Part shown: positions 1 to 38,338 of the stretch, piece by piece
How positions within the stretch are numbered: position 1 is the first letter of the stretch
How the letters are laid out: each line of letters starts with the position of its first letter
IMG/VR virus record: IMGVR_UViG_3300014839_000021
Location: 1 to 38,369 of that record
Source of the DNA: a virus
Length of the DNA stretch: 38,369 nucleotides
Reading direction: 5' to 3' (one strand)
Notes under the pieces: model-generated
The model's database searches: none
The model's input: only the letters and a program-made list of their open reading frames with translations
What the model was told of the DNA's origin: nothing
Translations under genes and position numbers: made by a program

Positions 1-924
1 GAGCCGCGCGTTCAGCGCCTCCATCTTGCCTTCAAGGGCCTGGATGAGCTGATCGCTTGCGTCCAGAACCTCGTTAAGCGGACGGGCGGGCGTGAAGCTC
101 ACCCCAGGCTTCGGTATTGCCAGGTGAGCCAGCTTTTGGTCCACCAGGTTGATGTGGCGCGTGTAATTGGAGATCGGCTCCAGGTCGAGCTGGGCAGGGT
201 CGGTCGAGTGTTCGACCATCTCGTCTACCTGCCCGTCCTCCAACTGCTCCTCCTCTTCATCCGCTTCTGCTTCCGCTGGGCCTTCCTGCTTTTCTTCGGG
301 TCCGCGAAAGAGGAATCCGACGTCGGCTGCCCTCCCGCACTTCTCTGCGATGAGTGCGGCCAACTCGGTCTTTCTGGCCTCGGTGAGCTGATAATCGACA
401 TCAACGGGCAACTGATCGAGCGTCGTGTGGATCGGCTTGAAGATGTCCAGCCGCGCCAGGGTGTCGCCGTTCTTGTTGGTGACGACACTGATGAACCAGC
501 TTGCCGCCCCGCCCAATATCCGGATGCACTCGGCGTCCGTCCCGCTCCAGAACACCTGGAATGTGCCGTGAGAGTGGATCCAGACGACGAGCTTCCCCAT
601 GTCCTTGCCCGCTTTGGCGGCCTCGAACATGAACTTGCCCATATCCGCCTGGTCGAGCTCGGTGTTGGAGCCCGAGTTGCGCTGTTTGAGGAACACGATC
701 TCGGTGATGGTGAACGTGGCGCCCGCCTGGTCAGCAAAGGCCAGCGCGGAGCATTCCCCTGGTACTGTCTGGACCATCAGGTCCCACTCGGCCCAGGCTT
801 GCGCGGTGAAGAGGATTTTCGGATTCACGAAGATTGCTCCCTGCTTTTTCGGTGCCTGCGGGGTGACTTTCACCGCCGCTGTTGCTGGTGTAGCTTTGCT
901 ACGCGACCTCGGCCAGTCTGCCAT
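1..924 (-). CDS. JAMM/JAB-family metalloprotease (isopeptidase-like), C-terminus cut by window edge
   Basis: Read leftward from an ATG at 924, this frame stays open to position 1 (308 codons), so the C-terminus is outside the window. Residues about 30-170 form a JAB/MPN domain with the full JAMM signature: Glu57 in PGECSAL, then His117-Ser-His119, seven residues, Ser127, two residues and Asp130 (HSHGTFQVFWSGTD). In this family these residues bind Zn and cleave isopeptide bonds or trim ubiquitin-like precursors. A very acidic linker (about 200-225) and a helical, coiled-coil-like tail follow. The start lies 26 bp inside the E2-like gene, which suggests translational coupling. With the Ubl and E2-like genes upstream in the same operon, its likely job is maturing or removing the Ubl; that is inference. 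Motif identification is secure, substrate unknown. Confidence 0.88.
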   Translation of the reverse strand, partial: MADWPRSRSKATPATAAVKVTPQAPKKQGAIFVNPKILFTAQAWAEWDLMVQTVPGECSALAFADQAGATFTITEIVFLKQRNSGSNTELDQADMGKFMFEAAKAGKDMGKLVVWIHSHGTFQVFWSGTDAECIRILGGAASWFISVVTNKNGDTLARLDIFKPIHTTLDQLPVDVDYQLTEARKTELAALIAEKCGRAADVGFLFRGPEEKQEGPAEAEADEEEEQLEDGQVDEMVEHSTDPAQLDLEPISNYTRHINLVDQKLAHLAIPKPGVSFTPARPLNEVLDASDQLIQALEGKMEALNARL

Positions 925-2077
925 CTGCTGGTGCTGGGGTAGCGGTGGCGGCGGGCCGAGCTTCCTGCCCGTCTGGGACGCTTTCGTAGGCTTCATCAGC
1001 GATGTTCCTCGCGCGTGCTTGATGTGTGGTTATGGACGGCCAATCCGTGATCGGGTTATACGGGCTCCGATCGTTATAGCTGTTCAGGTAGTTGGATACG
1101 GTGAAGAACGCGCCGAACATCTCGAAGTCGCGCATCATGTTCGCCATGTTCACTCCCATGTTCCCCCAGCAGATGCTTGTGTCCATGATGTGAGGATGCG
1201 GATACCGCGTGCTGTTGTGGACCATGATGAGCGCCGTTTCCAACTGCTGAATCGTGATGCGGGCGTTGGCAAAGTCGATTGAGACTTTGTAGTGCCCCAT
1301 CGGATAGACGCGGTTGTTGTACGTGATCTCGACGTGTTGCGTGACGCCCACCACCTTGCAGCCTTCAGGGGCAAAGGTGAAGCTCTCGTACTTCGCGGGG
1401 ACCAGAATCGATTGGAGCCTGGTGATGTCTCCCTGCACGCGCGCAATCCAGGCGGCGTTGGAGCCGTTCGTGGCGCTGATTCGGTCCACGATACTCTGGC
1501 GTTTAGCCCAGAGCGCCTGCGTACGGACCTCATCGGCGGCGATCTCCTGGTTCACGGCCAGGAGTGCTGCGGTGTCGTTCTGACCGCGTGCCAGGACGAT
1601 CTTCGAGAGGTTCTCTGCGTAGCGAAACAGATTGAGGTGCTGGTGGCTCTTGAAGCGTTCAAGGAACCTGGTGAACTCCGGAGTCTCCAGGAGGTCCAGC
1701 TTCGCGTAGGCGACGAAGATGATGCTGGCGCCTGCGACAAGAGCTGCCTTCCCCTGGTACTCCAGGCGATCGGCCGCGTCCCATTCCGTAATCTTGTAGT
1801 CGAACTTGTTGATGACAGGGCTGATCGTGTGCGAATGCAAACAATTTTGTGGTAACGGGAGCTTGATGTAAACCTTGTCCATTGTGGCCTGTGTGAAACT
1901 AATCGTTGCGGCGCCTGTAGCCTGAATGACGACCTGCTTATCGGGCAGGACGGAGGCGACCTTTGCCGTCAATGCGGCCGCGAAAGCGTTAAGCGCGGTC
2001 TGGATCTTGACGTGGTTGTCGGAGAACTCAAACGCCGTTTGTGTGGAGAGATTTATGCTTCTTGGTCCTGTTGCCAT
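899..2077 (-). CDS. E2-like (ubiquitin-conjugating fold) protein
   Basis: 392 residues. The last third carries an E2-type signature: YPHPHI at 292-297 (compare the HPN motif of E2 enzymes), then SICWGN with a candidate catalytic Cys303, then helices and an NSYNDRSPYNPITDWP block (332-347) resembling the E2 C-terminal NP-dP element. The N-terminal 230 residues are an extra region with helical heptads (about 170-225), not part of a minimal E2, and the last 40 residues are a low-complexity Ala/Pro tail. It lies between the Ubl (with an HNH gene in between) and the JAMM gene, which strongly supports the E2 reading. The ATG has no clear Shine-Dalgarno and starts 6 nt after the HNH stop. A non-catalytic structural protein is the alternative; the Cys and context argue against it. 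Confidence 0.72.
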   Translation of the reverse strand: MATGPRSINLSTQTAFEFSDNHVKIQTALNAFAAALTAKVASVLPDKQVVIQATGAATISFTQATMDKVYIKLPLPQNCLHSHTISPVINKFDYKITEWDAADRLEYQGKAALVAGASIIFVAYAKLDLLETPEFTRFLERFKSHQHLNLFRYAENLSKIVLARGQNDTAALLAVNQEIAADEVRTQALWAKRQSIVDRISATNGSNAAWIARVQGDITRLQSILVPAKYESFTFAPEGCKVVGVTQHVEITYNNRVYPMGHYKVSIDFANARITIQQLETALIMVHNSTRYPHPHIMDTSICWGNMGVNMANMMRDFEMFGAFFTVSNYLNSYNDRSPYNPITDWPSITTHQARARNIADEAYESVPDGQEARPAATATPAPADGRLAEVA

Positions 2078-2083
2078 GCGCGG

Positions 2084-2548
2084 CTATGTCTTTCGACGAT
2101 TGCGATTCTGTTCGAGCCTTGTCGCCCATCGGCAGTTGTCAGGCTCGTAGTTCCCATCGTTGTTGATGCGGTCGAGTGAGAGGCCGATTGGCCTCTCACC
2201 CATATCCGCATAGAAGTTTAGAAATCTCCGCCAGCGTTCGCATATCGAGATGCCACGCCCACCGTAGTCGGCCCAGTTGTTGCGATTAGGGTTGTGGCAG
2301 CGCGTGTTCATAGAGATCCACGACATATGAGCACGAGTCCCTGCTAATCCGTGTTTGCGAAGACACCCGCATGACTGAGTGTGACCAGTCACCAGGGCGC
2401 TTCGCTGGGTCGTGAACTCGTTGCCGCACAAACAGCGGACAAGCCAGTAAGTGTTGGTCCCATTGGAGCGCAAATAGCGAAGCGCGGTAAGGCGACCAAA
2501 CACCTGGCCCGTCATATCGTGGTATCGAGGTGTGGCGGAGTCTTTCAT
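2084..2548 (-). CDS. HNH endonuclease, homing type
   Basis: 154 residues. The N-terminal GQVFGRLTAL and CLCGN...SCGC segments (about 15-63) and the C-terminal LDRINNDGNYEPDNCRWAT block (about 125-143) are typical of free-standing phage HNH homing endonucleases. These nick or cut DNA and copy themselves into homologous sites. The ATG directly follows the TAA of the ubiquitin-like gene, and the stop is 6 nt before the E2-like ATG, so the gene sits inside the Ubl-E2 pair as a likely secondary insertion. The E2-like start lacks a good ribosome site, which would fit an insertion that displaced it, but that is inference. Family call is firm, activity untested. Confidence 0.85.
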   Translation of the reverse strand: MKDSATPRYHDMTGQVFGRLTALRYLRSNGTNTYWLVRCLCGNEFTTQRSALVTGHTQSCGCLRKHGLAGTRAHMSWISMNTRCHNPNRNNWADYGGRGISICERWRRFLNFYADMGERPIGLSLDRINNDGNYEPDNCRWATRLEQNRNRRKT

Positions 2549-2806
2549 TTACCTGTTACCTATGTGTCCACCCACCGTCTTCAAAGTGAGTGTGAGGATG
2601 TCGCCTTCGTTCAAGGGTGCGGTCGGGCTGACCGTCCCGTCGTCTCCCGAGGGAGAAACGAGAACCCCATTCACGAATTTTTGGAACGTGCTGCCCTGGT
2701 ACTCGGGCATACCGTCGAGCGCGGTGATGAGATCGCCAACGGTGGATCCGTCGTTGAGCGTGACGGCGGTGGACGGGGTGCCGATTTTGAGGACCTGGAC
2801 GACCAT
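2549..2806 (-). CDS. Ubiquitin-like protein with C-terminal Gly-Gly
   Basis: 85 residues from the ATG at 2806, chosen because AAGGGA lies 9 nt upstream. Alternative starts at 2824 (ATG) and 2845 (GTG) add 6 or 13 residues with weaker signals. The pattern fits a beta-grasp fold: MVVQVLKIG strand, a loop, a central TVGDLITAL helix, a second strand pair (FVNGVLVSP), then LNEGDILTLTLKTVGG. This matches MoaD/ThiS/ubiquitin-like proteins, including the NEGD turn before the last strand. Gly-Gly is followed by only five residues (HIGNR), so a protease such as the adjacent JAMM protein could expose a GG terminus for conjugation. First gene of the Ubl-HNH-E2-JAMM block; stop and next start abut. Confidence 0.75.
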   Translation of the reverse strand: MVVQVLKIGTPSTAVTLNDGSTVGDLITALDGMPEYQGSTFQKFVNGVLVSPSGDDGTVSPTAPLNEGDILTLTLKTVGGHIGNR

Positions 2807-2850
2807 TTCAGTGATTCCCTTCATTACCACAAATGATTGGTGCACCGACC

Positions 2851-3611: not shown

Positions 3612-3655
3612 ATGGCCCGAGCGATATTTATTTCCGACACGCGATGTCATTGACA
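3597..3655. repeat. Perfect 15-bp inverted repeat between divergent promoters
   Basis: TGTCAATGACATCGC (3597-3611) is the exact reverse complement of GCGATGTCATTGACA (3641-3655), with a 29-bp AT-containing centre. Each arm contains its own TGTCA/TGACA palindrome overlapping a -35 box. This looks like a paired operator, or a shared recognition element for both divergent promoters. Confidence 0.8.
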
Positions 3656-3678
3656 AACGCGGGACAAAGTTGTAGGTT
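3641..3678 (+). promoter_or_regulatory. Promoter P2, rightward
   Basis: GCGATGTCA plus TTGACA (3650-3655), a 17-nt spacer and TAGGTT (3673-3678), followed by CG as in the other copies. Expected start near 3685. It faces into a 270-bp stretch with no clear gene and then into the 3' ends of leftward genes, so its product is probably a small RNA, a very small protein, or antisense to those genes. Confidence 0.7.
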
Positions 3679-8914: not shown

Positions 8915-10389
8915 CCAAGCAGGAACTCTTGTCGCGCATGAGGTCCGATCCGATGCTCTTCGGGAAGATCTGCCTCCCGAATATGTTCTCCGTCGCCAGC
9001 CCGCCCTTTCACTACGAGCTGGTGGCGGCCTACATGGACCCCACGGTGGACAGGATGAACGTGATCGCGCCCAGGGGGCACGCCAAGAGCTCGCTCTTCG
9101 GCTGCCTCCTGGTGCTGCATCACATGATGTTTGACCCTGGCAAGAAGTTCATTCTCCTCGTATCGAAGACCGAGGGGCACGCCATACGGCTCCTCGACAC
9201 GCTGAAGAACGTCCTGGACTATTCCCCCCAGTTCCGCTCCTTCTTCGGGTACCACGGGGAGAACGTGGCGAAGATGTGGGCGCGCACGGAGGTCCTAATG
9301 GACACGGGGGACTACATCCTGACGCGCGGCACGGGCCAGCACATCGTCGGACTGAAGCACGGGGACCAGAGGCCGACGTTTATCCTCCTGGATGACCCCG
9401 AAGACATGACCAATACGAAGACGAACGAGTCGATGGAGTATAATCTCAAATGGCTCCTTCAGTCTCTCTTGCCCGCCCGAGACGCGCACAAGGGGAGGGT
9501 GTTCGTGATCGGCACGCCCCAGCACCAGAGGTGCATGGTCGAGGTGCTCCGGACGATGGAGGGGTGGAAGAACTTCTGGTATTCGGCGGAAATGGACCCC
9601 GCGGGCAAGAAAGCCCTCTGGCCCGAGCAATGGTCCTGGGACAAGCTCATGAAGGAACGGGCGAGCGCGGACTCGATTCACCGCCTTTCGAGTTATCTCC
9701 GCGAATACTGCTGCACGATCGTCTCCGATGACGAGGCGCTCTTCAAGGACGAGTACCTGCGTTACTACCAGGGGGAACTCTTGCGCGACAGGTTCGGCAA
9801 CGGCTACCTCCTCATGGCCGATGGCTCGGAGAAACCTGTCATCGTCTATATGGGAATCGACGGCGCGGTCAGTACAAACGAAAACGCCGACTACACGGTT
9901 ATCATGCCCGTGGCCGTGGACAAGGAGAACAACCGCTACATCCTTCCCTTTACCAGAAAACGGATGCCGCCTTCCCGCGTGATCGACGAGATCATCCGGA
10001 TGGCTGAGAAATGGAAGCCGATGACGGTCAGGATCGACGTCGGCGGACAGCAGGAGATTTATGCCGACGTGATCCGCAACCTGGAGAACAAGCGCGGGAT
10101 CCGGATGCTCACGTACAGGCCGAGGGAACAGAAGTCGAAGCTGTACCTGGAGGGTCTGGAGCCCTGGTTCTACAAGCGCAAGGTGTATCTGACGAACGGA
10201 ATGCACGAACTGAAGGACGAACTCCTGGCCTTCCGTACAGACATGAGGCACAAACACGACGACATGATCGACGCGATGTTCTACGCTTTCCACCGCGCGC
10301 TCCCGCCCAGTCACACTGTCAGCGCGGAGAAAGGCAGACAGTCTGGTGATGAGCCCGTATCGAATAAAAATTCGTGGATGCTCTCGTGA
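8911..10389 (+). CDS. terL: Terminase large subunit (DNA-packaging ATPase and nuclease)
   Basis: 492 residues from GTG 8911 (overlaps the previous stop); ATG 8938 is an alternative. ATPase: Walker A-like APRGHAKSS (53-61), Walker B FILLDD with catalytic-type PED (157-165), and a VIGTP motif III (199-203). Nuclease: GIDG (D317), RIDVGG (D376) and HDDMIDAM (D450, D451, D454), the RNase H-like acidic triad. It pumps DNA into proheads at the portal and cuts the concatemer. The length is usual for the family and all key residues are present. Just upstream of the portal, as expected. Confidence 0.95.
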   Translation: MTKQELLSRMRSDPMLFGKICLPNMFSVASPPFHYELVAAYMDPTVDRMNVIAPRGHAKSSLFGCLLVLHHMMFDPGKKFILLVSKTEGHAIRLLDTLKNVLDYSPQFRSFFGYHGENVAKMWARTEVLMDTGDYILTRGTGQHIVGLKHGDQRPTFILLDDPEDMTNTKTNESMEYNLKWLLQSLLPARDAHKGRVFVIGTPQHQRCMVEVLRTMEGWKNFWYSAEMDPAGKKALWPEQWSWDKLMKERASADSIHRLSSYLREYCCTIVSDDEALFKDEYLRYYQGELLRDRFGNGYLLMADGSEKPVIVYMGIDGAVSTNENADYTVIMPVAVDKENNRYILPFTRKRMPPSRVIDEIIRMAEKWKPMTVRIDVGGQQEIYADVIRNLENKRGIRMLTYRPREQKSKLYLEGLEPWFYKRKVYLTNGMHELKDELLAFRTDMRHKHDDMIDAMFYAFHRALPPSHTVSAEKGRQSGDEPVSNKNSWMLS

Positions 10390-10423
10390 TGTCATTGACA
10401 ATGTCATGACAAAGTGCTTGGTT
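10387..10423 (+). promoter_or_regulatory. Promoter/operator P4 at end of large terminase
   Basis: TGATGTCA then TTGACA (10395-10400), a 17-nt spacer and TTGGTT (10418-10423), one base off the TAGGTT of P1-P3. Inside the spacer lies a second palindrome, TGTCATGACA (10403-10412). It resembles the other promoters but with a doubled palindrome, so it may be more tightly repressed. Confidence 0.5.
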
Positions 10424-28027: not shown

Positions 28028-31000
28028 ATGGATGACCAGTCGATAGCACTTCTCAATTCGCTGTACCAGCAGAAACCCGAAACATTCACCGATGACCAGG
28101 TCGCCTCGCTTCAGCAGGTGAACAAGGATGCGGGCAAGGATTTCCAGCCCAAGGCATCGGCCCAGCCATTTAATCTTCTTAATACCGTTGCACAACTAGG
28201 CGAAGGATTCCTTCAGGGATTCACGACGATCAAGATGGGTGAAGCCCCGCAGAACACGGTCGAGGGGATCGCCCGATCGGTCGGGAGCCTCCTGGGATTT
28301 GTCGGCTTCGTCCCTGGCCCTGGCATCTTCAAGGCATTCAAGCGCGAGGGAATGGCGGGCGTTACCGCCGCGGCGACCCATGACGCGCTCGGCATCCAGC
28401 TCAAAAGCGTGCCCATGTGGATTTCGGACAAGATCATGGGCGGACTGCAGAAAACCATCGCCCAGACCGAAGCGGCGAGTGCAATCAAGTTCTTCAAGAA
28501 TGGCTCGATCGCGCGCGACGTGACCGAGGGCGCCCTTTCGCTCGGCATCGCCTCGGCGGTCGGCGCGGCGCAGCCCTGGGAGCTGAACATCGAGGACCGC
28601 ATGAAGGCATTCCTCGGCGGGGCGGAGGCAGGGGGCGTGTTCCGCGGTATCGGTAACACCTTCGCCAAGGGCGGCGCGATGAACATGGGGAGTGAGGCGA
28701 CGAACCTCCTGGCCCGTACGCTCTCGGCATCACTCTATTCTGGCATCCCCTCCACGCTCCGCGGTGAGCCGATGGAGATGCAGGTCTATGAATATCTCCT
28801 CGGGGCCTGGTTCGGCAAGAACGAGCAGCCCGCGTACATGAGGGAAGTGCATGGGCTGTTCAAGGACTACCTCGGCGACACGACTCGCCAGATGGAGCTC
28901 CTCGACCCCTCAAAACTCCCTGGCTACGACAACCTTTCGGACAACGCCAAGATCGAGGCAAAGGCCCAGGCGCAGCTCCTGGTCGGGGGATGGGAAGAAT
29001 CGGCAAAGGCAAGCGAGGCGGCAATCGCCGCCTCCCAAGCCTTCGCAGGCTCCATGACTGACGCGCTGGCGACGGGCAGGATAAGCCCCGAGCAGTACCG
29101 CGACTGGTCGAGAGTCCAGGTCGTCGAAGGCGCCTACCGCAAGACGAAGGATACGGTCGATCAGGAGCACCCCGAGTTGGATGAGGAGACACGTTCGGCG
29201 ATGGCGCGGCAGGGCGCACTCGCCAACGTTGCGGAGTTCTCACGGCAGGCCCGCACGAACACAGACGCGCTCAAAAGGCTCTGGGCAGCAAGCGACCAGG
29301 AGAACGTCTGGATGCACTCCAACGGCGGGACGCAAGTTCTGAAGATGTTCGACGACCGCGAGGTTGCCCGCCAGTGGATCGCCCCCGTCTACGAGCTGGC
29401 AAACCAGCTTGCGGAGTCGCGTGGAGCGATTGACAAGAAGAACGACGTCACCTATGCAAGCGAGATCATTGACCACGTCAAGGCGTCGGGCAAGGGTGCA
29501 AACCAACTGGATGCCTTCCGCGCCAGGATACTGAAGGAGTACTCGCTCGACACGACCAAGGACGCGGACTTGAACCGCAAGATCGTGCAGACCGTGGCCC
29601 TGGTGAGTCAGTCCAAGAGGCTCAACCGCCTGATCCTGAACAAGGACGGCGATGTAGTCCAGATGCCCCGCATGGACATGGACGGGGATTCGACCTCGAT
29701 GGACTATGTCCCCACGTTCATTGAGAAGAAGTCGGGAGCCACGGCGCACCTGCTCTCCTCCCAGTTTACCGAGGATGAGGAGAAGCCGCTGAATGACATC
29801 GAGTTTAATGCGGCCAAGATGATCGTTTCGGCCTACGGCTACACGGCGTCGACCACGGGACGCGACGGGACCGATGTCGCCCGTAGCGTGCCCCTGATAT
29901 ACTTCGGCCATGTGAAGGACACCCCTCATGAGGTGTTCCTGACGAGTGTTGTCTCGCGCGCGAAGGACGGCTGGACCTACGAGGTGAACGGCGAGAAGCG
30001 AACGGTGAAGTTCCTCCAGAAGCTCGACGAGCTTAACCGTGCCCCCGCGATGGCGGGACGCGACGCACGGAGCGACTACCAGGCGAACAGGGAGGACTTC
30101 ATCAGAGAGTACGCCGAGGGGAAGCCCATCTCCGAGCAGAAGAAGGTCGAGCTGAGGGATATTTACGAGCACCTGACGATGCAGAACATCGCCGTCGCCG
30201 AGCAGATGAATGACGGCATCTCGATCGGCGACCAGATGGCTTCCGCGCATGAGGCCCAGGGCGGCCTGTCCTTCATGACGAAGGTAACGGATTTCAACAA
30301 GCGTATGCAGCCGATGTTTAACCGCGATCCCCTGGCGGACCCCGAACAGTTCAAAGACATCCTTCCTGATGGGAAGATGAAGGGCGTCCTGGTGCAGATG
30401 GACGAGAGCCCGCAGGGTGGGAACGCGATGCAGAAGGTCGAGGACAAGAAGGGGAACGTCGTAGACAAGATCTACGGCGAGGCGACCGATGGCGTGTTCC
30501 TCATGACTGGTCCCGTGTACGAGCGCCTTGCCGCCTCGATGGGGCTGCCGAAGGATACGGGCGGGCAGAAGGGGACCGTGATGTATTCGGACAAAGCGGA
30601 CGGGATGTTTATCGGCAAGCTGTTCTTCCACCGTGCGAGTCCCGAGATGGAGAAGTCCATGACGGAGCGCGGTATACACTTCCAGGCGTACACGACGGCG
30701 GCCAAGCAGTTCGGCAAGCGTCCCGTGTTCACCGAGAAGTACTCGGGCGGGAGGTTTTCCTACGAGCGGCAGGGCGGCACGTTCCTCGATGACGGCACCT
30801 TCGAGTTGCCCGTTGACTCGATCCGGATGAACTTCGGGGCGGGGGAGATGGGTGGATTCCATGACACCTACTACAAGAGGCAGTTGGCCGACAACCTGGA
30901 CCTGGTGCATTCGATCGGCTGGGACGAGAACATACTGAAACCCGCCAACCGCGGGCGCGATTCGCAGAACCTGATCGCGGCGAAGTACTGGAACGTGAAC

Positions 31001-34000
31001 GAGAAGCGCCGCGCGGAGTTGGATCAAGAGTTTGCCGCCGATGTCGAGAAGCACGGCGTTCAGCTCGGGAGCCAGCGCCTGGTGGACCTGATGGTGGGCG
31101 CCGAGCGCAAGAGTTCGCCCATCTACAACACGGTGCTGAAGGACGTTCTGAAGTGGTACGGGCGTGAGATGGAGACTGCGGAGAACCGATCGGATGACGC
31201 GCTGGCCGAGCTCACCTTTCTCTCCAAGGCAAAGACGGCGGCTGACCGTATCAAGGCGGCCAACATCTCTGACCCGCTGGTGATGGAGCTGAAGCAGATC
31301 AAGCCGTTCTTCCATACGATGCTTCGCCGTTACTTGACCGACCGCCTCATGGGGCCGACAAGCGAGGGCTCCTGGAAGTCGAAGCTGTATTCCGCCGATC
31401 GCTCCTTGATAAGCCGTATCCACGAGGGCGAGTACCTGGCAGCGGACGGGCTGAAAGACAAGCCCATCCAGTTCCTGGGGAAAGAAACGCGCCTGGAGGA
31501 TGCCTGGACGAAGTACAACAGCAAGACGTTGTCAGGAAACGATCAGGCGCAGGCCGAGCGGGACCTGGAGCATTTCGTGATGCGCGTCCCTGCGGATTCG
31601 CCCTCTGGCGTGCGGGTGATGAAGTTCAAGGGGTTCTCAGGGAGTCAGGGGTACGGAATCTACCTTCACCCGAAGGATATGCAGGCTCTGGGCGGAGCCG
31701 ATCTTGACGGCGACGCGGCGGACGTCTATACGAAGATCGGCTCCTCGGCGGACTTTAACGAGAAGCTCAAAACGTATTTCCGCTCCAAGAAGGATATGTG
31801 GCAGAAGGAGAACGGCGTCACCGTTCCCTCCTCGTCGGACGGCCTGGCGGTTGAGGGGCGTGATCCTTTGATAACCGCTCGGCTGAAGAGCCCCGCCTCG
31901 ATGGTGGATCCTCTTTCACGGGCGAAGGTGGGACGCTGGGCCAACATGGGCAACTCGATGCTGGGCCGCGCCCTGACGCGCACGATGAGGCTCCGCGAGA
32001 TGCAGAAGTTCGCGCTCGATAACGGCGGGACAATCCGCGGGAAGTTCTCCAACTCGGACGCCGTTCGCCTCATGCTGGCAAAGAAGCTCCCTGGTGCCGA
32101 CCGCTTCATTCCCGAGGAGCTGGAAGGGTTGAAAGCCTCCCTGGACAAGACGCGCCGCAGACAGTCGGACTGGGACAATATCAATACCGCGGTGAAGAAG
32201 GCGGGACTCTCCGCTGGCGTCTGGAAGGCGGACCTGAACCTCGGTCAGACCGCGACGGGGGCGACGAAGCTCCAGGAGATGCGGCGTAATGTTATTAACA
32301 CGGCGGCAGACGCGGCCAAGGGGGACGAGCTCTATGCCTACAAGGACATCCGGAGCGCGATCAATTCCTCGGCTTTCTCCAACATGAAAGTGCAGTTCAA
32401 GCGGGACGGGAAGCTCACCGTCTCGGCGGTGGACGATTACCTCCTGGTGGACAACCACGACTACTACAAGAAGCTGACGGCCATCGGCGGCTTTGCGACG
32501 GCCAGGGACCCCAAGACGGGACGAGCTTTCTCCTTCTTTGAGGCACTTGAAGGGCTCCAGGCGAACGCGAAGGTGGACAAGAAAACGGGTGAGATCCCCT
32601 TCGACCCGAGCGCGGTGCGTTTCCGCGTGGCGAACCATCTGGCGCAGATCGAGCTTACGGCACGCGACATCGACCTCACCCATGTCATCGGTCCAGGCTG
32701 GCCGCTGGCGCGTAAGGCACTTGACAAGATGATCCGCGAGAACAGGGAGTTCCGCGAGATGGTGAACCGCAAGCAGATCACGATTGACACCAGGGGCGAG
32801 GCGGCGTTCGCTCAGACGGTGGATAAGACGACGCTGGGCGGCCAGGACGACATCAACGAGATCCGTATGCAGGATCTCCAGGACGTCGCCACCTGGAGCG
32901 AGGTGGGGAATTTAGGACAGCAGGTCATGGATTCCCAGGTGAAGGGGGGCGCAAAGAGGGAGGACGTTCTCGCGTATTTCGCGCAGATCGCCGATAAGAT
33001 CGACGACCTGAAGGCCGAGGACGCCACGATCAGGAAGGACAAGTTCTCTGGCGAGGAGCCCAAGGCCCGTAAGACGGTCGAGCAGGTGGTGAAGGAGGCA
33101 TCCGATTTCAGGAAGGCGCTTCCGGAAGTCTACGCGCCCTACTTCGATGCGTGGGCGGCAGGGTCCCTGTTCCGTCAGGGCGAGGAGTTTGAGGCGCGGC
33201 CTGGCGTGAAGGCGCTCCGTGCGGGCGAGGCGGAGGCCAACAGGCAGGGTGGCGAGACGCTTGGGGCCTGGAAGCAGGCGCTTCATGAGGAGAGTAAGGA
33301 CTGGAACCGCACCAATTCGACCAACTTCGCCTACGCGCTCGACGTCGTTGCCCCTGATGCCATACGCAACCAGGTCCAGCGCATGGTGGACATCGGGCGC
33401 ACCGTGTCGAACATACTCCCCAGGGCGAAGAGCGAGTTCGCCGAGACGGAGCTTCGGAGCGTGGTGTTCGCGCCCAAGCTCGTCACCCCCGAGTTGAAGG
33501 CGGTCATGCCTGAGACGGTGCTCATGCTGGCCCCGATCGAGCAGACGAAGGTCATCGCCGCCGTACTCGGCAACATCGAGCAGGTGAAGGTGTCCAATAC
33601 GTTTGCCCATGATGCCTTCGAGCTGGCGAAGCTCCAGGTGAAGGATCCCGAGCTGAAGCAGCTCTCGGGCGATCTCAGGCGCCTCCTGGATCATTTCCCC
33701 CAGTTCATGCGGGACATCCAGGGATGGCTGGAAGGAACCGTCGCCGAGTCCAACGACCAGGGTGTCGGAGTCGGACCACGGAAGTTCACCAAGCAGCACC
33801 TGAAGATGGTCGTCAACAGCTTCAAGGTAGGTGATAAGTTCTGGTGGGAGCTCTCGGCAAAGGAACGCGAGTTCTCCCTGGCGAACCGTCACTTCCTCTA
33901 TGATCCCGAGATGCTGGGGAGAAAGATGCTTGCGGGCGACCACAAGTTGATGGATTCTGTCTCACCCGTGATCGACGACGTGGAGGGGCCGATCTTCAAG

Positions 34001-36583
34001 CCCGTCAAGGTGTTCAAGAGTCACATGAGCGAGATCGCCGACCTCTGGCAGCACGCCCACTGGTCGTTCAACGGCGCGATGAAGAACGAGGGGCAGGTGT
34101 TGGACCGCTTCCTGTTCCCCGTCAGGGCCTCTGGCAAGGATGGTTACACCCTCTTTTCGATCGCTTCGGACATACGGCAGGGGGGTGTCGGACGGCGCCC
34201 TGGGGTCAGCGCCGAGTCAGCGGCGGCCTATGCGACAATCGAGAAGCGCGGACTTGACCGCTTCAACAAGGAGTATGACTTCGGCAGGAAGAGGGTACGC
34301 TACTCGGACATGACGGGCTCGACCGACATCACGGCGAAGGAAGCCCTGGAGAAGATCACCAAGCTCCAGACGGACTTCTTTGCTCGCTGGCAGTCGATCA
34401 TCTCGAATCCTATAAACGAGAAGCGGTACCTCAAATATCATGCGGGGACGCAACTCATCGACGTCACCGAATCCCTCCGTGCCCTGAACGATCATATAAA
34501 ATACGGTCGTCAGCTCCCCGACATCGGGATCGAGGGGATGTATAAACTGATACACCAGATGAGCGTCAACAAGATGGTCGTCAACGGGCAGCGCCTGGGT
34601 GACCTCTCCGCGGTGGACCGCGAGAGGACGATGGCCGAGCTCTTCAACCGCACCAGGGCGAATGGTTCACGCCCGTATGCGTTCCTCCGCTATAAGAACC
34701 TGGAGTTCATGAGCCCCGCGATGTACTTCCCGCACAACGGGCACTCGGAAAAGATGCTCCGTGAACGCCTGAACAACGAGCGCGAGAAGATGCGGGCTGC
34801 CGTCTCTGGCCCTGAAGCAGTGGCGATGGACAATCTGGAGAGCCTGGAGCGGGTGACGAGCCTGAACCTGGAGGACGCGGGGATGTCAGACTCGGTCATG
34901 CGTCAGTTGGAGGCCCGCACCCTCTCGGACAAGGACTACGCCTCGCTCAACATCAGGCCCCAGGCGCTAAAGCTCCGCGATGAGCTGCCGCTTCCTGGCT
35001 GGGACCAGTCGCCCCTTGCCCTGGAACGGTATCAACAGCAGATGCTTCGTGGCTATTACAACATGGTGGGAGCCGTGATGTCGAGCGCCCGCGTGGACAA
35101 CTTCGCGTACTCCAAGCCCTTCGGAGAGAACACGAAGCCCTGGGAGATCTTCATGAGGATCTTCAACCGTAACAACCTGGGGCATCCCTCGACCTTCCCG
35201 CAGGAGTGGCTTGACCATCCGGAGTACAAGATCAAGGGCAACCCTGGCTACTACTGGCTCACCGATCAGTACTGGCTGGACAAGGCCGCGCAGATCGACA
35301 AGGAGCACTTCCAGATCATCAGTAAGCCCACTGATGAGATGACGGCGAAGGACAAGGAGCACAACTGGGAGGTAAAGAAGAACCAGCAGCAACGCATCAG
35401 GAAGATCGCCGCCTTCTCGAACCTGGAGGCCAAGTGGGAGATGATCTCCATGCTCTCGCACACCAAGACGGCCATCAACAACCTGATGGGCGGGACGACG
35501 AACAACGCTGTGTCGCTCGGTCTTGGCCCCTACGTGCGGAGCCATTCGCTCAATTACTGGAGGGGGATCTTCCCGCAGATACGCAGCATGGATGATATGA
35601 GGCTCTTTGCCGAGAAGCATGGGGCAGGGGAGAGCTGGGTGAACGACGCGCTGGAGTCCCGAGGGCTGGGCCAGGATCGGAAGTTCTCGGGAGCTCTGGC
35701 CGAGGCCGTCGCCGAGATCAAGCGCAACCCGAAGCTCTCGGACATCGACCTGTTCCACATCGCCGACAAGCACGGCGTTGACCGCGCCTTCTTCGATACG
35801 GGCGCCTGGTTCATGCGTAAGACCGAGCGGTATCTCCGCAACCAGTCTTTTCTTGCCCATTACTCGAAGGCGCGTGAAGCTCTGGGAGCGAACAGTTTTA
35901 CCTTTGAGGACGACGACCCTTGGCTGATTAAGATGGCCAACAGGGGCGTCAAGACGACGCAGTTCCTCTATAACAACGCTTCACGCCCCGCCTTCGGGCG
36001 GACGTCACTGGGTAAGGTGTTCACCCGCTTCCAGATGTGGGCATGGAATAGCGGCAAGATGCGCTTGGAGGTCTACAACAAGGCGAAGGAAGTGGGATAC
36101 GCGCAGGGCAGCCCTGAGTTCGAGCGCCTCCGCCGTCTGATGATCTCAGACCTCTTCACCTTTGCCCTGGCTGGGCTGTTTCCCTCGACGATCTTCGGGT
36201 CGAACATGGCGCCGCCGTGGTCGTTCCTCCAGGACGCTTCCAGCTTCTTCTTTGGGAACGATGAGGACAAGGACAGGGCGTTCTTCGGGAGCCTGCCGTA
36301 CCCGCTGAACATCGTCCAGCCCGTGTCGCCTCCGATCACGCGGCTACTGTATCCGACGTTCCAGGCCGCGGTATCGGGCAACTGGGATCGGTTCTTCGAC
36401 TATCACGTCTGGACGTGGTTTCCTTACGGGCGTATGGCGAATAGCGTGCGGAAGACGATGCAGGACCCGTCAATGGCGGTGGAGCAGTTCACTGGCCTAC
36501 CTCTTCACCGTCTCGCCTCTGACGTGAAGAGGAAGGACCAGGACAGGGCGACGACTGAGGGGATTATCTCGGGTCTGCTCTGA
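28028..36583 (+). CDS. Giant virion protein with two-barrel (DPBB) RNA polymerase signatures
   Basis: 2851 residues, GAGGGA before the ATG. The N-terminal 250 residues contain Gly/Ala membrane-active segments as in the upstream ejection proteins. Residues about 820-900 resemble the first double-psi barrel of phage and RdRp-type polymerases: TDGVFLMTG, GGQKG (K848), IGKLFF (K864), and a TTAAKQFGKR end (K893). Residues 1186-1229 match the beta-prime catalytic block: R1186-V-P, YLHP (1212-1215), nine residues, then D1225-L-D-G-D1229, the Mg-binding motif; compare NRAP...LHP...NADFDGD in bacterial RpoC. The C-terminal 500 residues end in a hydrophobic patch (LFTFALAGLFPSTIFG). Most likely a packaged RNA polymerase injected with the DNA. 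Activity is inference; the motif is directly visible. Confidence 0.8.
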   Translation: MDDQSIALLNSLYQQKPETFTDDQVASLQQVNKDAGKDFQPKASAQPFNLLNTVAQLGEGFLQGFTTIKMGEAPQNTVEGIARSVGSLLGFVGFVPGPGIFKAFKREGMAGVTAAATHDALGIQLKSVPMWISDKIMGGLQKTIAQTEAASAIKFFKNGSIARDVTEGALSLGIASAVGAAQPWELNIEDRMKAFLGGAEAGGVFRGIGNTFAKGGAMNMGSEATNLLARTLSASLYSGIPSTLRGEPMEMQVYEYLLGAWFGKNEQPAYMREVHGLFKDYLGDTTRQMELLDPSKLPGYDNLSDNAKIEAKAQAQLLVGGWEESAKASEAAIAASQAFAGSMTDALATGRISPEQYRDWSRVQVVEGAYRKTKDTVDQEHPELDEETRSAMARQGALANVAEFSRQARTNTDALKRLWAASDQENVWMHSNGGTQVLKMFDDREVARQWIAPVYELANQLAESRGAIDKKNDVTYASEIIDHVKASGKGANQLDAFRARILKEYSLDTTKDADLNRKIVQTVALVSQSKRLNRLILNKDGDVVQMPRMDMDGDSTSMDYVPTFIEKKSGATAHLLSSQFTEDEEKPLNDIEFNAAKMIVSAYGYTASTTGRDGTDVARSVPLIYFGHVKDTPHEVFLTSVVSRAKDGWTYEVNGEKRTVKFLQKLDELNRAPAMAGRDARSDYQANREDFIREYAEGKPISEQKKVELRDIYEHLTMQNIAVAEQMNDGISIGDQMASAHEAQGGLSFMTKVTDFNKRMQPMFNRDPLADPEQFKDILPDGKMKGVLVQMDESPQGGNAMQKVEDKKGNVVDKIYGEATDGVFLMTGPVYERLAASMGLPKDTGGQKGTVMYSDKADGMFIGKLFFHRASPEMEKSMTERGIHFQAYTTAAKQFGKRPVFTEKYSGGRFSYERQGGTFLDDGTFELPVDSIRMNFGAGEMGGFHDTYYKRQLADNLDLVHSIGWDENILKPANRGRDSQNLIAAKYWNVNEKRRAELDQEFAADVEKHGVQLGSQRLVDLMVGAERKSSPIYNTVLKDVLKWYGREMETAENRSDDALAELTFLSKAKTAADRIKAANISDPLVMELKQIKPFFHTMLRRYLTDRLMGPTSEGSWKSKLYSADRSLISRIHEGEYLAADGLKDKPIQFLGKETRLEDAWTKYNSKTLSGNDQAQAERDLEHFVMRVPADSPSGVRVMKFKGFSGSQGYGIYLHPKDMQALGGADLDGDAADVYTKIGSSADFNEKLKTYFRSKKDMWQKENGVTVPSSSDGLAVEGRDPLITARLKSPASMVDPLSRAKVGRWANMGNSMLGRALTRTMRLREMQKFALDNGGTIRGKFSNSDAVRLMLAKKLPGADRFIPEELEGLKASLDKTRRRQSDWDNINTAVKKAGLSAGVWKADLNLGQTATGATKLQEMRRNVINTAADAAKGDELYAYKDIRSAINSSAFSNMKVQFKRDGKLTVSAVDDYLLVDNHDYYKKLTAIGGFATARDPKTGRAFSFFEALEGLQANAKVDKKTGEIPFDPSAVRFRVANHLAQIELTARDIDLTHVIGPGWPLARKALDKMIRENREFREMVNRKQITIDTRGEAAFAQTVDKTTLGGQDDINEIRMQDLQDVATWSEVGNLGQQVMDSQVKGGAKREDVLAYFAQIADKIDDLKAEDATIRKDKFSGEEPKARKTVEQVVKEASDFRKALPEVYAPYFDAWAAGSLFRQGEEFEARPGVKALRAGEAEANRQGGETLGAWKQALHEESKDWNRTNSTNFAYALDVVAPDAIRNQVQRMVDIGRTVSNILPRAKSEFAETELRSVVFAPKLVTPELKAVMPETVLMLAPIEQTKVIAAVLGNIEQVKVSNTFAHDAFELAKLQVKDPELKQLSGDLRRLLDHFPQFMRDIQGWLEGTVAESNDQGVGVGPRKFTKQHLKMVVNSFKVGDKFWWELSAKEREFSLANRHFLYDPEMLGRKMLAGDHKLMDSVSPVIDDVEGPIFKPVKVFKSHMSEIADLWQHAHWSFNGAMKNEGQVLDRFLFPVRASGKDGYTLFSIASDIRQGGVGRRPGVSAESAAAYATIEKRGLDRFNKEYDFGRKRVRYSDMTGSTDITAKEALEKITKLQTDFFARWQSIISNPINEKRYLKYHAGTQLIDVTESLRALNDHIKYGRQLPDIGIEGMYKLIHQMSVNKMVVNGQRLGDLSAVDRERTMAELFNRTRANGSRPYAFLRYKNLEFMSPAMYFPHNGHSEKMLRERLNNEREKMRAAVSGPEAVAMDNLESLERVTSLNLEDAGMSDSVMRQLEARTLSDKDYASLNIRPQALKLRDELPLPGWDQSPLALERYQQQMLRGYYNMVGAVMSSARVDNFAYSKPFGENTKPWEIFMRIFNRNNLGHPSTFPQEWLDHPEYKIKGNPGYYWLTDQYWLDKAAQIDKEHFQIISKPTDEMTAKDKEHNWEVKKNQQQRIRKIAAFSNLEAKWEMISMLSHTKTAINNLMGGTTNNAVSLGLGPYVRSHSLNYWRGIFPQIRSMDDMRLFAEKHGAGESWVNDALESRGLGQDRKFSGALAEAVAEIKRNPKLSDIDLFHIADKHGVDRAFFDTGAWFMRKTERYLRNQSFLAHYSKAREALGANSFTFEDDDPWLIKMANRGVKTTQFLYNNASRPAFGRTSLGKVFTRFQMWAWNSGKMRLEVYNKAKEVGYAQGSPEFERLRRLMISDLFTFALAGLFPSTIFGSNMAPPWSFLQDASSFFFGNDEDKDRAFFGSLPYPLNIVQPVSPPITRLLYPTFQAAVSGNWDRFFDYHVWTWFPYGRMANSVRKTMQDPSMAVEQFTGLPLHRLASDVKRKDQDRATTEGIISGLL
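31583..31714 (+). other. Polymerase catalytic block (R-x-P to D-L-D-G-D)
   Basis: Codons 1186-1229 of the giant gene: Arg-Val-Pro, a 23-residue strand region, LHP, and at 31700-31714 the Asp-Leu-Asp-Gly-Asp motif preceded by Gly-Gly-Ala. The Leu variant (DLDGD) is the form usual in cellular RNA-dependent RNA polymerases and is also found among phage two-barrel enzymes. Confidence 0.75.
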
Positions 36584-37185: not shown

Positions 37186-38184
37186 TCAAGGGATGGTTCG
37201 AAGGCTTGGCAAACGATCGACAGTCTCGTGCATCTCGCGCGATACCAGGTGTGAGTATCCCATCGTTGTCGCGATCGAGGTGTGGCCCATAATCTTCTGG
37301 ACATCCTGGACGGCAGCTCCGTTCTTCAGAGTCAGCGTCGCAAATGCATGACGTAGCGAGTGGAAGTGAACGTCCGAGTCGATCCCAGCTCGTTTCTTCG
37401 CTCTTGCGAAGAGGCGAGAGACATGGTGAAGTGTCGGCGGGGTTCCCTTCTCTGTGACAAAGACACGGACGGTACTTTGATCCATCCCGTTCAGGATCAG
37501 GAGCGCCTGGGCGTTGAGGGGAACCCAGCGTTCTCTGTCGCCCTTCCCGTATCGTACATGGAGGAGACGTTCGTACAACTGGACATCATCCCAGGTGAGC
37601 TCGACCAGTTCCTTCCGCCGCAGTCCCGTCAAGATCGCAAGGGCGATGATGTCCTTGTGCCATTTGCTCCGCAGTCCCTTCCAGAGTTTGTCAAAGTCGT
37701 CGGGTGAGACGTACACCTTCCCGCTGGTTTTCACATAGAGGTTCTTCAGGAAGCGCAGAGGATTCTCCGCAAGGTATTCCCGCTGGACGGCGTAGGTGAA
37801 CATGGCTTTGAGCTGGCGGAGATGAATCAGCACCGTTGCCTTGCCCCTACCCGTCCCGAGAAGGGCGCGGTACTCGTCCATGCGTGCGGGAGTGATCGTT
37901 GAGAGGCGCCAGTCGCCCCCCCACGCGAGGAACGGCTTGAGGATGTCCCTGATGAGTTGCTGTGTTGTCGGCTGGTGTTCGGCCTTCGAGTGCGCGAGGT
38001 AGGCATCAGAGAACTCTCGCAGGGTAGCGTTGGAGGTGTGGCCTGGGATGCGGAAGTCGCGGAGAGTGACCCGTGCTTTGCCCCTTTCCCTGTATCCCGT
38101 CGATTTGCTATGCTCTCTGCCCGTTGAATCCTTGTACCGAATTATATATATTCCATCGTAGCGTTTCGTGAGGGAGGGGGGCAT
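37186..38184 (-). CDS. int: Tyrosine integrase (site-specific recombinase)
   Basis: 332 residues on the minus strand. N-terminal arm-binding part (about 1-50; KRYDGIYIIRYKDSTGRE), core-binding helical domain (about 51-145; includes LREFSDAYLAH and the LRQLKAMFTYAVQREYL helix), catalytic domain with all active residues: R189 in TGLRRKELVELTW, K214, H275-x-x-R278 in HSLRHAFATL, H301 in IMGHTS, and nucleophile Y310 in TMGYSHL. It would integrate and excise the phage by strand exchange through a 3'-phosphotyrosine. Length is typical. It lies next to a tRNA-His, a usual target. No strong ribosome site at the ATG. Confidence 0.93.
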   Translation of the reverse strand: MPPSLTKRYDGIYIIRYKDSTGREHSKSTGYRERGKARVTLRDFRIPGHTSNATLREFSDAYLAHSKAEHQPTTQQLIRDILKPFLAWGGDWRLSTITPARMDEYRALLGTGRGKATVLIHLRQLKAMFTYAVQREYLAENPLRFLKNLYVKTSGKVYVSPDDFDKLWKGLRSKWHKDIIALAILTGLRRKELVELTWDDVQLYERLLHVRYGKGDRERWVPLNAQALLILNGMDQSTVRVFVTEKGTPPTLHHVSRLFARAKKRAGIDSDVHFHSLRHAFATLTLKNGAAVQDVQKIMGHTSIATTMGYSHLVSREMHETVDRLPSLRTIP

Positions 38185-38197
38185 TTGTGACCTCGAA

Positions 38198-38216
38198 ATG
38201 TGTCAGTCATGTGTCA
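38198..38216. repeat. Two direct repeats ATGTGTCA, 11 bp apart
   Basis: ATGTGTCA at 38198-38205 and 38209-38216, one helical turn apart, between the integrase start and the tRNA. The half-site TGTCA is the same as in the P1-P4 palindromes. Candidate integrase arm sites or an operator of the integrase promoter. Confidence 0.45.
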
Positions 38217-38227
38217 CTTCCCACCTC

Positions 38228-38251
38228 CCAGCGTAGAAAAACCAACGCTGG
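38228..38251. repeat. Inverted repeat overlapping the tRNA 5' end
   Basis: CCAGCGT (38228-38234) and ACGCTGG (38245-38251) are perfect 7-bp arms around AGAAAAACCA. The right arm includes the first five bases of the tRNA. It could be a core-type integrase site, or a weak hairpin competing with the acceptor stem. Confidence 0.45.
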
Positions 38252-38320
38252 CGTAGCTCAGTTGGTTAGAGCACCAGATTGTGGATCTGGGGGTCACTGG
38301 TTCGAATCCAGTCGCCAGTA
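38247..38320 (+). tRNA. tRNA-His (GTG anticodon)
   Basis: Complete cloverleaf: acceptor GCTGGCG/CGCCAGT, D arm GCTC...GAGC, anticodon arm CCAGA-TTGTGGA-TCTGG with anticodon GTG (38281-38283), variable GGGTC, T arm ACTGG-TTCGAAT-CCAGT, discriminator A at 38320, no encoded CCA. The first pair is a G-T wobble, and there is neither G at -1 (it is C) nor C at 73, which most bacterial tRNA-His have. The 5' end, not the 3' end, faces the integrase. Confidence 0.9.
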
Positions 38321-38338
38321 CTATTCGATTGTTTCTCC

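Follow-up and report, generated by a model that had tools for sequence, protein, structure and literature searches.

Most accounts of how ubiquitin-like proteins (Ubls) are conjugated in prokaryotes treat the process as a trait of bacteria and, recently, as a means of anti-phage defence. Bil, Bub and CBASS type II are bacterial Ubl defence operons built on a conjugation logic of E1, E2 and JAB proteins, and the PRTRC plasmid system, which we take to be operon type 6d of Iyer 2006, combines a Ubl, an E2, a JAB and a ThiF protein in one operon. E2s of type 6d lack the classical histidine and carry a histidine after the cysteine instead, according to the section of PMC1779556 that treats them; in its section on phages, the same source lists a Ubl (gpI) and a JAB (gpK; JAB-NlpC in lambda) among the tail proteins of phages lambda and T1. 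Here we analyse the virus record IMGVR_UViG_3300014839_000021 (38,369 bases; this whole stretch is called the window below), at whose left edge lie four leftward genes, transcribed in the order Ubl, HNH endonuclease, E2-like protein and JAMM (JAB) metalloprotease (window 1-2845, minus strand). We consider it probable (about 0.7) that this cassette belongs, as its visible portion, to a Ubl conjugation pathway of the phage itself whose E1 gene lies just past the contig edge.

The gene order of relatives supports this reading. When the window JAB served as a tblastn query, crAss-like and Flavobacterium phages were matched weakly, and all four loci drawn from these matches contain a Ubl-like gene, a gene with an H-S-H...C-x-G signature, a JAB gene and a ThiF gene, the last annotated as hypothetical in phage cr106_1. 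A JAB profile search of viral contigs yielded 34 loci, partly redundant (L112 is apparently the same phage as L004), and in 30 of them a ThiF/E1 gene lies downstream of the JAB gene, within about 0.8 kb; in the remaining four (L092, L098, L114 and L116) the sequence stops no more than 232 bases after the JAB. A search by E2 gave another set of 30 loci, which shares some records with the JAB-drawn set; JAB and ThiF are present in 28 of them (L128 and L141 end first) and a Ubl in 25, the other five beginning at or inside the E2 gene. The best family likeness of the relatives' E1s is to ThiF. These proteins retain the glycine-rich nucleotide site and the DxD, N, K, D and R positions in 33-34/34 cases, together with a conserved cysteine (C180 of L085, the locus nearest to the window) in 33/34. 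Since a GenBank record labels one such protein 'E1 enzyme family protein', at least the E1 gene has already been seen by others. The original prediction, that the phage carries a conjugation or de-conjugation set of its own, is well supported by this synteny, with ThiF after JAB in the relatives, but no E1 is present in the window. Likewise, the suggestion that an E1 gene would be found left of position 1 agrees with its place downstream of JAB in the relatives, whereas the window record ends at the JAB. Wrapping the contig around to place the E1 at its other end was tried and rejected: the last 200 bases contain a tRNA-His region, and ThiF occurs nowhere in the record.

Operons of the type Ubl-E2-JAB-E1 were found in three phage lineages, namely crAss-like phages (group A), a group that we take to be marine from its IMG accession prefixes (group B), and L085 with the window as its kin. 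In group A, a Ubl with a long extension past SG is accompanied by an E2 with HSH, a JAB and an E1, and the operon is flanked by a primase gene on one side and by UDG, resolvase and exonuclease genes on the other; the cultured human-gut phage PhiCrAss001 belongs to this group (gp79 to gp76). Group B has a Ubl of about 70 residues, ending in SG plus 0-10 residues, and an E2 of about 530-690 residues with HPH, whose gene overlaps that of the JAB by roughly 60-170 bases in the tabulated loci; the E1 follows. Where its neighbours were read, a Sak4-like annealing protein comes after the E1, and DnaB/primase is also found. L085, a contig of 68 kb in which a terminase was matched, has an operon that encodes a Ubl ending in VHGGTL, an E2, a JAB and an E1; none of the neighbouring genes read there was identified. 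The large Xanthomonas phage PhiXhv-16 encodes a Ubl ending in SGG, an E2 with HPHM...GSLCLG and an E1, with topoisomerases as neighbours. Two models detected no JAB in the whole PhiXhv-16 record, which, next to a Ubl that already ends in GG, is expected if the JAB matures a precursor. Of the 17 records that bear the operon, seven have a portal that matches the window's at 42-44% identity; all seven are in group B, and by portal sequence the window phage is kin to this group.

The JAMM protein of the window presents the metal-site motif E...HxH-x7-S-x2-D (E81, H141-S-H143, S151 and D154). All of its residues had been predicted, but under shifted numbers (E57, S127 and D130 for E81, S151 and D154), because the open reading frame (ORF) starts 24 residues earlier. 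The match to Prok-JAB amounts to 21 bits (E 3e-4), short of the curated cut-off of 25; phage JAB profiles match the protein at E 7e-8 and 6.5e-10, and Rpn11/CSN5 is matched (E 8e-6) by a JAB profile of which the window sequence is a member. Across non-redundant phage JABs, the two histidines, the serine and the aspartate are kept in 39/39 and E81 in 37/39. The window JAB aligns with that of L085 along its length, ending close to the contig edge, and the two form a pair in the JAB tree (support 96/93), but the branches are long. In phage Fpv1 (L001 3680-5972), the JAB gene is in two parts, between which lies an opposite-strand ORF that looks LAGLIDADG-like (motif by eye).

The E2-like frame of the window is as predicted, with RYPHPHIMDTSICWGN and Cys303. 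Its HPN-type motif is an HPH variant, and the cysteine is located nine residues past the first histidine. Among 3132 ORFs of the window and the loci (518,538 amino acids), the pattern HPH[IVM].{3,9}C.G occurs in 21, all of which, that of the window among them, are E2-type genes immediately preceding JAB. H294, P295, H296, C303 and G305 are invariant in 12/12 aligned phage E2s, and the equivalent HPH, C and G residues are kept in 21/21 group B sequences. The looser expression H[PS]H found 24 of 25 E2s and missed that of L091, though this protein has a CLG motif. When the window E2 was compared with L085, with group B and with the E2 profile A10, 0/200 shuffles attained the observed score in each case. 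Direct comparison with the group A E2s did not align the motif (E 0.079 elsewhere), and the link of these proteins to the window therefore consists in synteny and motif alone. A BLASTP comparison with the E2 of PhiXhv-16 also left the motif unaligned; a segment before HPH is similar by eye. Neither the window E2-like protein nor those of its relatives matched any Pfam E2 family. The E2 profiles singled out two PDB sequences and no others; each is a UBE2W, matched over its catalytic stretch (profile A4 at E 0.6 and A10 at E 0.07). Among E2s, the Ube2w family is the only one with HPH according to a portion of PMC4630614, and UBE2W tags protein N-termini according to a portion of PMC9527308.

A confident model for comparison with the UBC fold of the original prediction came from a relative and not from the window protein. 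For the E2 domain of the group B member L104, a model built from 21 sequences reached a predicted local distance difference test score (pLDDT) of 88.6 and a predicted TM score of 0.85, and when the proteins listed by Foldseek were compared with this model by VIA-align, E2 or UEV domains made up 47 of the 50 rows, an RWD one and GNATs two, the best Z (to UEV/E2) being only 5.0. In a viral library, Foldseek matched the same model best to an unnamed protein (E 1.7e-3) and also to a crAss-like protein (E 0.039). Cys-rich C-terminal tails were seen on the E2-like proteins of L085 (7110-7844) and L121 (1241-3919); these are possibly zinc-binding or RING-like fusions, and the L085 tail matches C1_2 at E 0.039 only.

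The Ubl frame of the window was confirmed in its length and in the five residues that follow Gly-Gly (Table 1). With hhalign, 0/200 shuffles reach the observed score of this Ubl against L085 and 0/200 against the group B Ubls; 1/200 does so against group A. The C-terminal Gly-Gly followed by a short tail has its counterpart in the relatives, whose Ubls end in SG or GG plus a tail, and a glycine near the C-terminus is present throughout the aligned sequences. A family library search gave the window Ubl a ThiS match that is not significant (E 0.075), and RPS31E, Urm1 and SAMP2 are among the top rows for the Ubl profile A5, all of them weak (E 0.15-0.85).

Several observations weigh against a conjugation pathway in the window phage. 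The E1 family PF00899 is not found in the window record (0/1), where the contig edge cuts through the JAMM gene. The window proteins are highly diverged, the JAB having an end branch of 3.9, and the structure model of the window E2 is poor (pLDDT 38). As for the L104 model, the Z of 5 obtained with VIA-align falls within chance arrangements (the tool itself notes a maybe common arrangement), and Foldseek found nothing significant in PDB, with a best E of 0.97 and GNATs among the top rows. In the Ubl alignment, MAFFT puts the family glycine opposite H81 of the window, one residue past Gly-Gly, a column that is no proof; and the group B Ubl of L131 stops at its glycine, tail-less, despite the presence of a JAB. 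Closer portal relatives, in the 28 records picked as the longest from 80 loci, carry neither ThiF nor JAB. Because these records may be fragments, the module is either patchy among the portal relatives or was missed in them.

From the gene content and the conserved residues, we infer the following chemistry for a pathway of this kind. The JAMM enzyme would trim HIGNR off the Ubl precursor, exposing its Gly-Gly end, and the ThiF/E1 enzyme would adenylate the Ubl and hold it as a thioester on the conserved cysteine. Transfer to Cys303 of the E2-like protein would follow, with HPH standing in for HPN, and the E2 would join the Ubl to an amino group of the target, from which the JAMM enzyme may also remove it. 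A DNA replication or recombination protein, of phage or host, seems to us the likeliest target, because genes of this kind surround the operon in those loci of crAss-like phages, marine phages and PhiXhv-16 that were read; the replication genes of the window phage, if present, are beyond the contig edge. As a more speculative extension, on which we would not rely, a phage-restricted and complete Ubl pathway may form part of the replication module in a number of distinct phage groups, among them crAss-like phages of the gut, and the E2s of the window and of the marine group, with their UBE2W-type HPH, may tag the N-termini (alpha-amino groups) of replication or recombination proteins, the JAMM enzyme reversing the reaction. 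A complete pathway belonging to a phage lineage, with cultured human-gut crAss-like phages among its bearers, would in itself mean that protein tagging serves bacterial viruses in their replication or in take-over. It would offer a genetically approachable model, and the PhiCrAss001 genes annotated 'thiamine biosynthesis protein' and 'metalloprotease domain' would also be explained.

The same proteins might serve counter-defence or host take-over. In one version the Ubl would be put on host proteins, with defence sensors and the host polymerase as examples; in another, the JAMM enzyme would strip host-made Ubl tags from phage proteins. Host Ubl defences of the Bil and CBASS type exist, and a module that is patchy among portal relatives resembles accessory genes; yet an entire pathway is carried and not a lone JAMM, PADLOC defence models match 0/4 window proteins, and the crAss-like and group B loci read are inside replication modules, not among accessory genes. 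We regard such a role as possible and tentative, with no specific support. The set of the window phage could also be decayed, or a remnant for de-conjugation only that has no E1. Such a history would be in keeping with the E1 not seen in the record, the long JAB branch and the HNH insertion within the operon, but it is unlikely given that the predicted catalytic residues are all kept in the three proteins, that every frame is open and that the JAB ends where the contig ends.

Two other uses of a Ubl have to be considered beside conjugation. As a sulfur carrier, the Ubl would form a thiocarboxylate together with ThiF, for thiolation of nucleotides, tRNA or cofactors, and the JAB would only mature the carrier. 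The E1s are indeed most like ThiF, and ThiS, Urm1 and MoaD are among the nearest weak matches of the Ubls; against this, the loci that extend far enough encode, between the Ubl and the JAB, a protein whose HPH and Cys are conserved, and no sulfurtransferase was noticed among the genes read. We judge a carrier function quite unlikely. It is very improbable that the set processes a structural protein for virion assembly, as the tail Ubl/JAB pair of lambda would, even with the gpI and gpK precedent of lambda and T1: the cassette points leftward, away from the rightward structural block, and contains an E2-like gene (with an E1 in the relatives) that the lambda pair lacks in the relevant part of the PMC1779556 account. 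Conjugation by a pathway of the phage's own remains our preferred reading.

A host source of the module was not seen within the limits of the searches, because those of genomes and plasmids gave no relatives of the JAB or of the window E2. Close relatives of the window E2 were absent from the phages, plasmids, viral contigs and genome contigs searched. As a single protein, the window JAB found no relative in viral contigs, where the profile search did find loci, and a profile made from the window and L085 JABs recovered L085 again and nothing else. A JAB pattern matched 13 stretches in 84,980 species genomes, none of them relatives, although with a single short pattern absence is unproven. The group B JAB gave no match in plasmids, in which the group B E1 had seven weak matches (E 2e-6 to 4e-4), and the L085 JAB gave none in phages.

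The features of the window are collected in Table 1. Its leftward operon contains the three frames that had been predicted, but the HNH gene between Ubl and E2 had been overlooked, and the label 'early' given to the operon is a presumption. The HNH endonuclease, whose gene has relatives in 812 phage records, is probably a mobile gene and not a component of the pathway. An HNH gene directly after the Ubl is common to the window and phage cr106_1 (L004 2264-3467), in which it follows the KIKSGKF of the Ubl and splits off the usual C-terminal extension. The rightward genes of the window encode terminase, portal and major head protein. Near the right end, the integrase beside a tRNA-His gene suggests a temperate phage or an integration site. 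A direct repeat, perhaps a shared promoter or regulator site, has one copy upstream of the leftward genes and the other between terminase and portal, and one very long ORF was also noted.

Table 1. Positions of the cassette genes and of further features in the window
Feature	Position	Strand	Details
Ubl (ubiquitin-like modifier precursor)	2549..2806	-	85 aa; C-terminus TVGG-HIGNR; GTG start possible at 2845
HNH endonuclease	2084..2548	-	phrog_374, E 4e-61; between Ubl and E2 genes
E2-like protein	899..2077	-	392 aa; predicted catalytic H294-P-H296...C303-x-G305; 98-base overlap with JAB gene
JAMM/JAB metalloprotease	1..996	-	at least 332 aa; 3' end cut at contig edge; E81, H141, H143, S151, D154
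Direct repeat	3640..3678 and 10385..10423		39 bases, 77% identity
Long ORF	28028..36583		2851 aa; no PHROG match
Integrase and tRNA-His gene	37186..38321		phrog_1; tRNA gene complete

Among the described systems, PRTRC resembles the phage operons in uniting a Ubl, an E2, a JAB and a ThiF protein. This likeness, which the original prediction had invoked, is a general one: PRTRC_B and PRTRC_C match none of the window proteins, PRTRC_A matches the window JAB at E 0.0037 with 16.8 bits against a cut-off of 101.8, and PRTRC_ThiF matches the relatives' E1s at E 7e-10 and 3e-8, below the curated cut-offs. By these models, the window proteins are not members of PRTRC_A, PRTRC_B or PRTRC_C. In addition, the phage E2s have HPH before the cysteine, unlike the type 6d E2s. 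The Bil, Bub and CBASS operons differ from the present ones, which are carried by phages and lie among replication genes in the relatives read. Lambda gpI and gpK are likewise a phage-encoded Ubl and JAB, but they are structural proteins without an E2-like partner or an E1, as far as the cited section of PMC1779556 describes them. In UBE2W, HPH replaces HPN at a similar spacing to the cysteine (VHPHVYSNGHICL), as in the phage E2s; the resemblance does not reach beyond the residues around the active site (E 0.07-0.7), leaves homology as a whole unproven, and may be taken as a lead for the chemistry and not as proof of kinship. PhiCrAss001 encodes a Ubl, an E2-like protein (HSH..C.G), a JAB and a ThiF in gp79-gp78-gp77-gp76, in the same order as the window set, from which it differs by HSH in place of HPH and by the long extension past the Ubl glycine; of the four, gp77 ('metalloprotease domain') and gp76 ('ThiF') alone carry a name in its record. 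In the literature covered, to which subscription papers and preprints did not belong, we met with no account of a Ubl-E2-JAB-E1 operon in a phage, and a prior report is possible. The accessible parts of PMC7824862 and PMC13288928 contain nothing on phage Ubl conjugation operons, and the searched terms do not occur in the crAss papers PMC7886860, PMC6235969 and PMC10172136. The kinds of component are already known, and the phage operon is a variant form of the prokaryotic Ubl conjugation operons.

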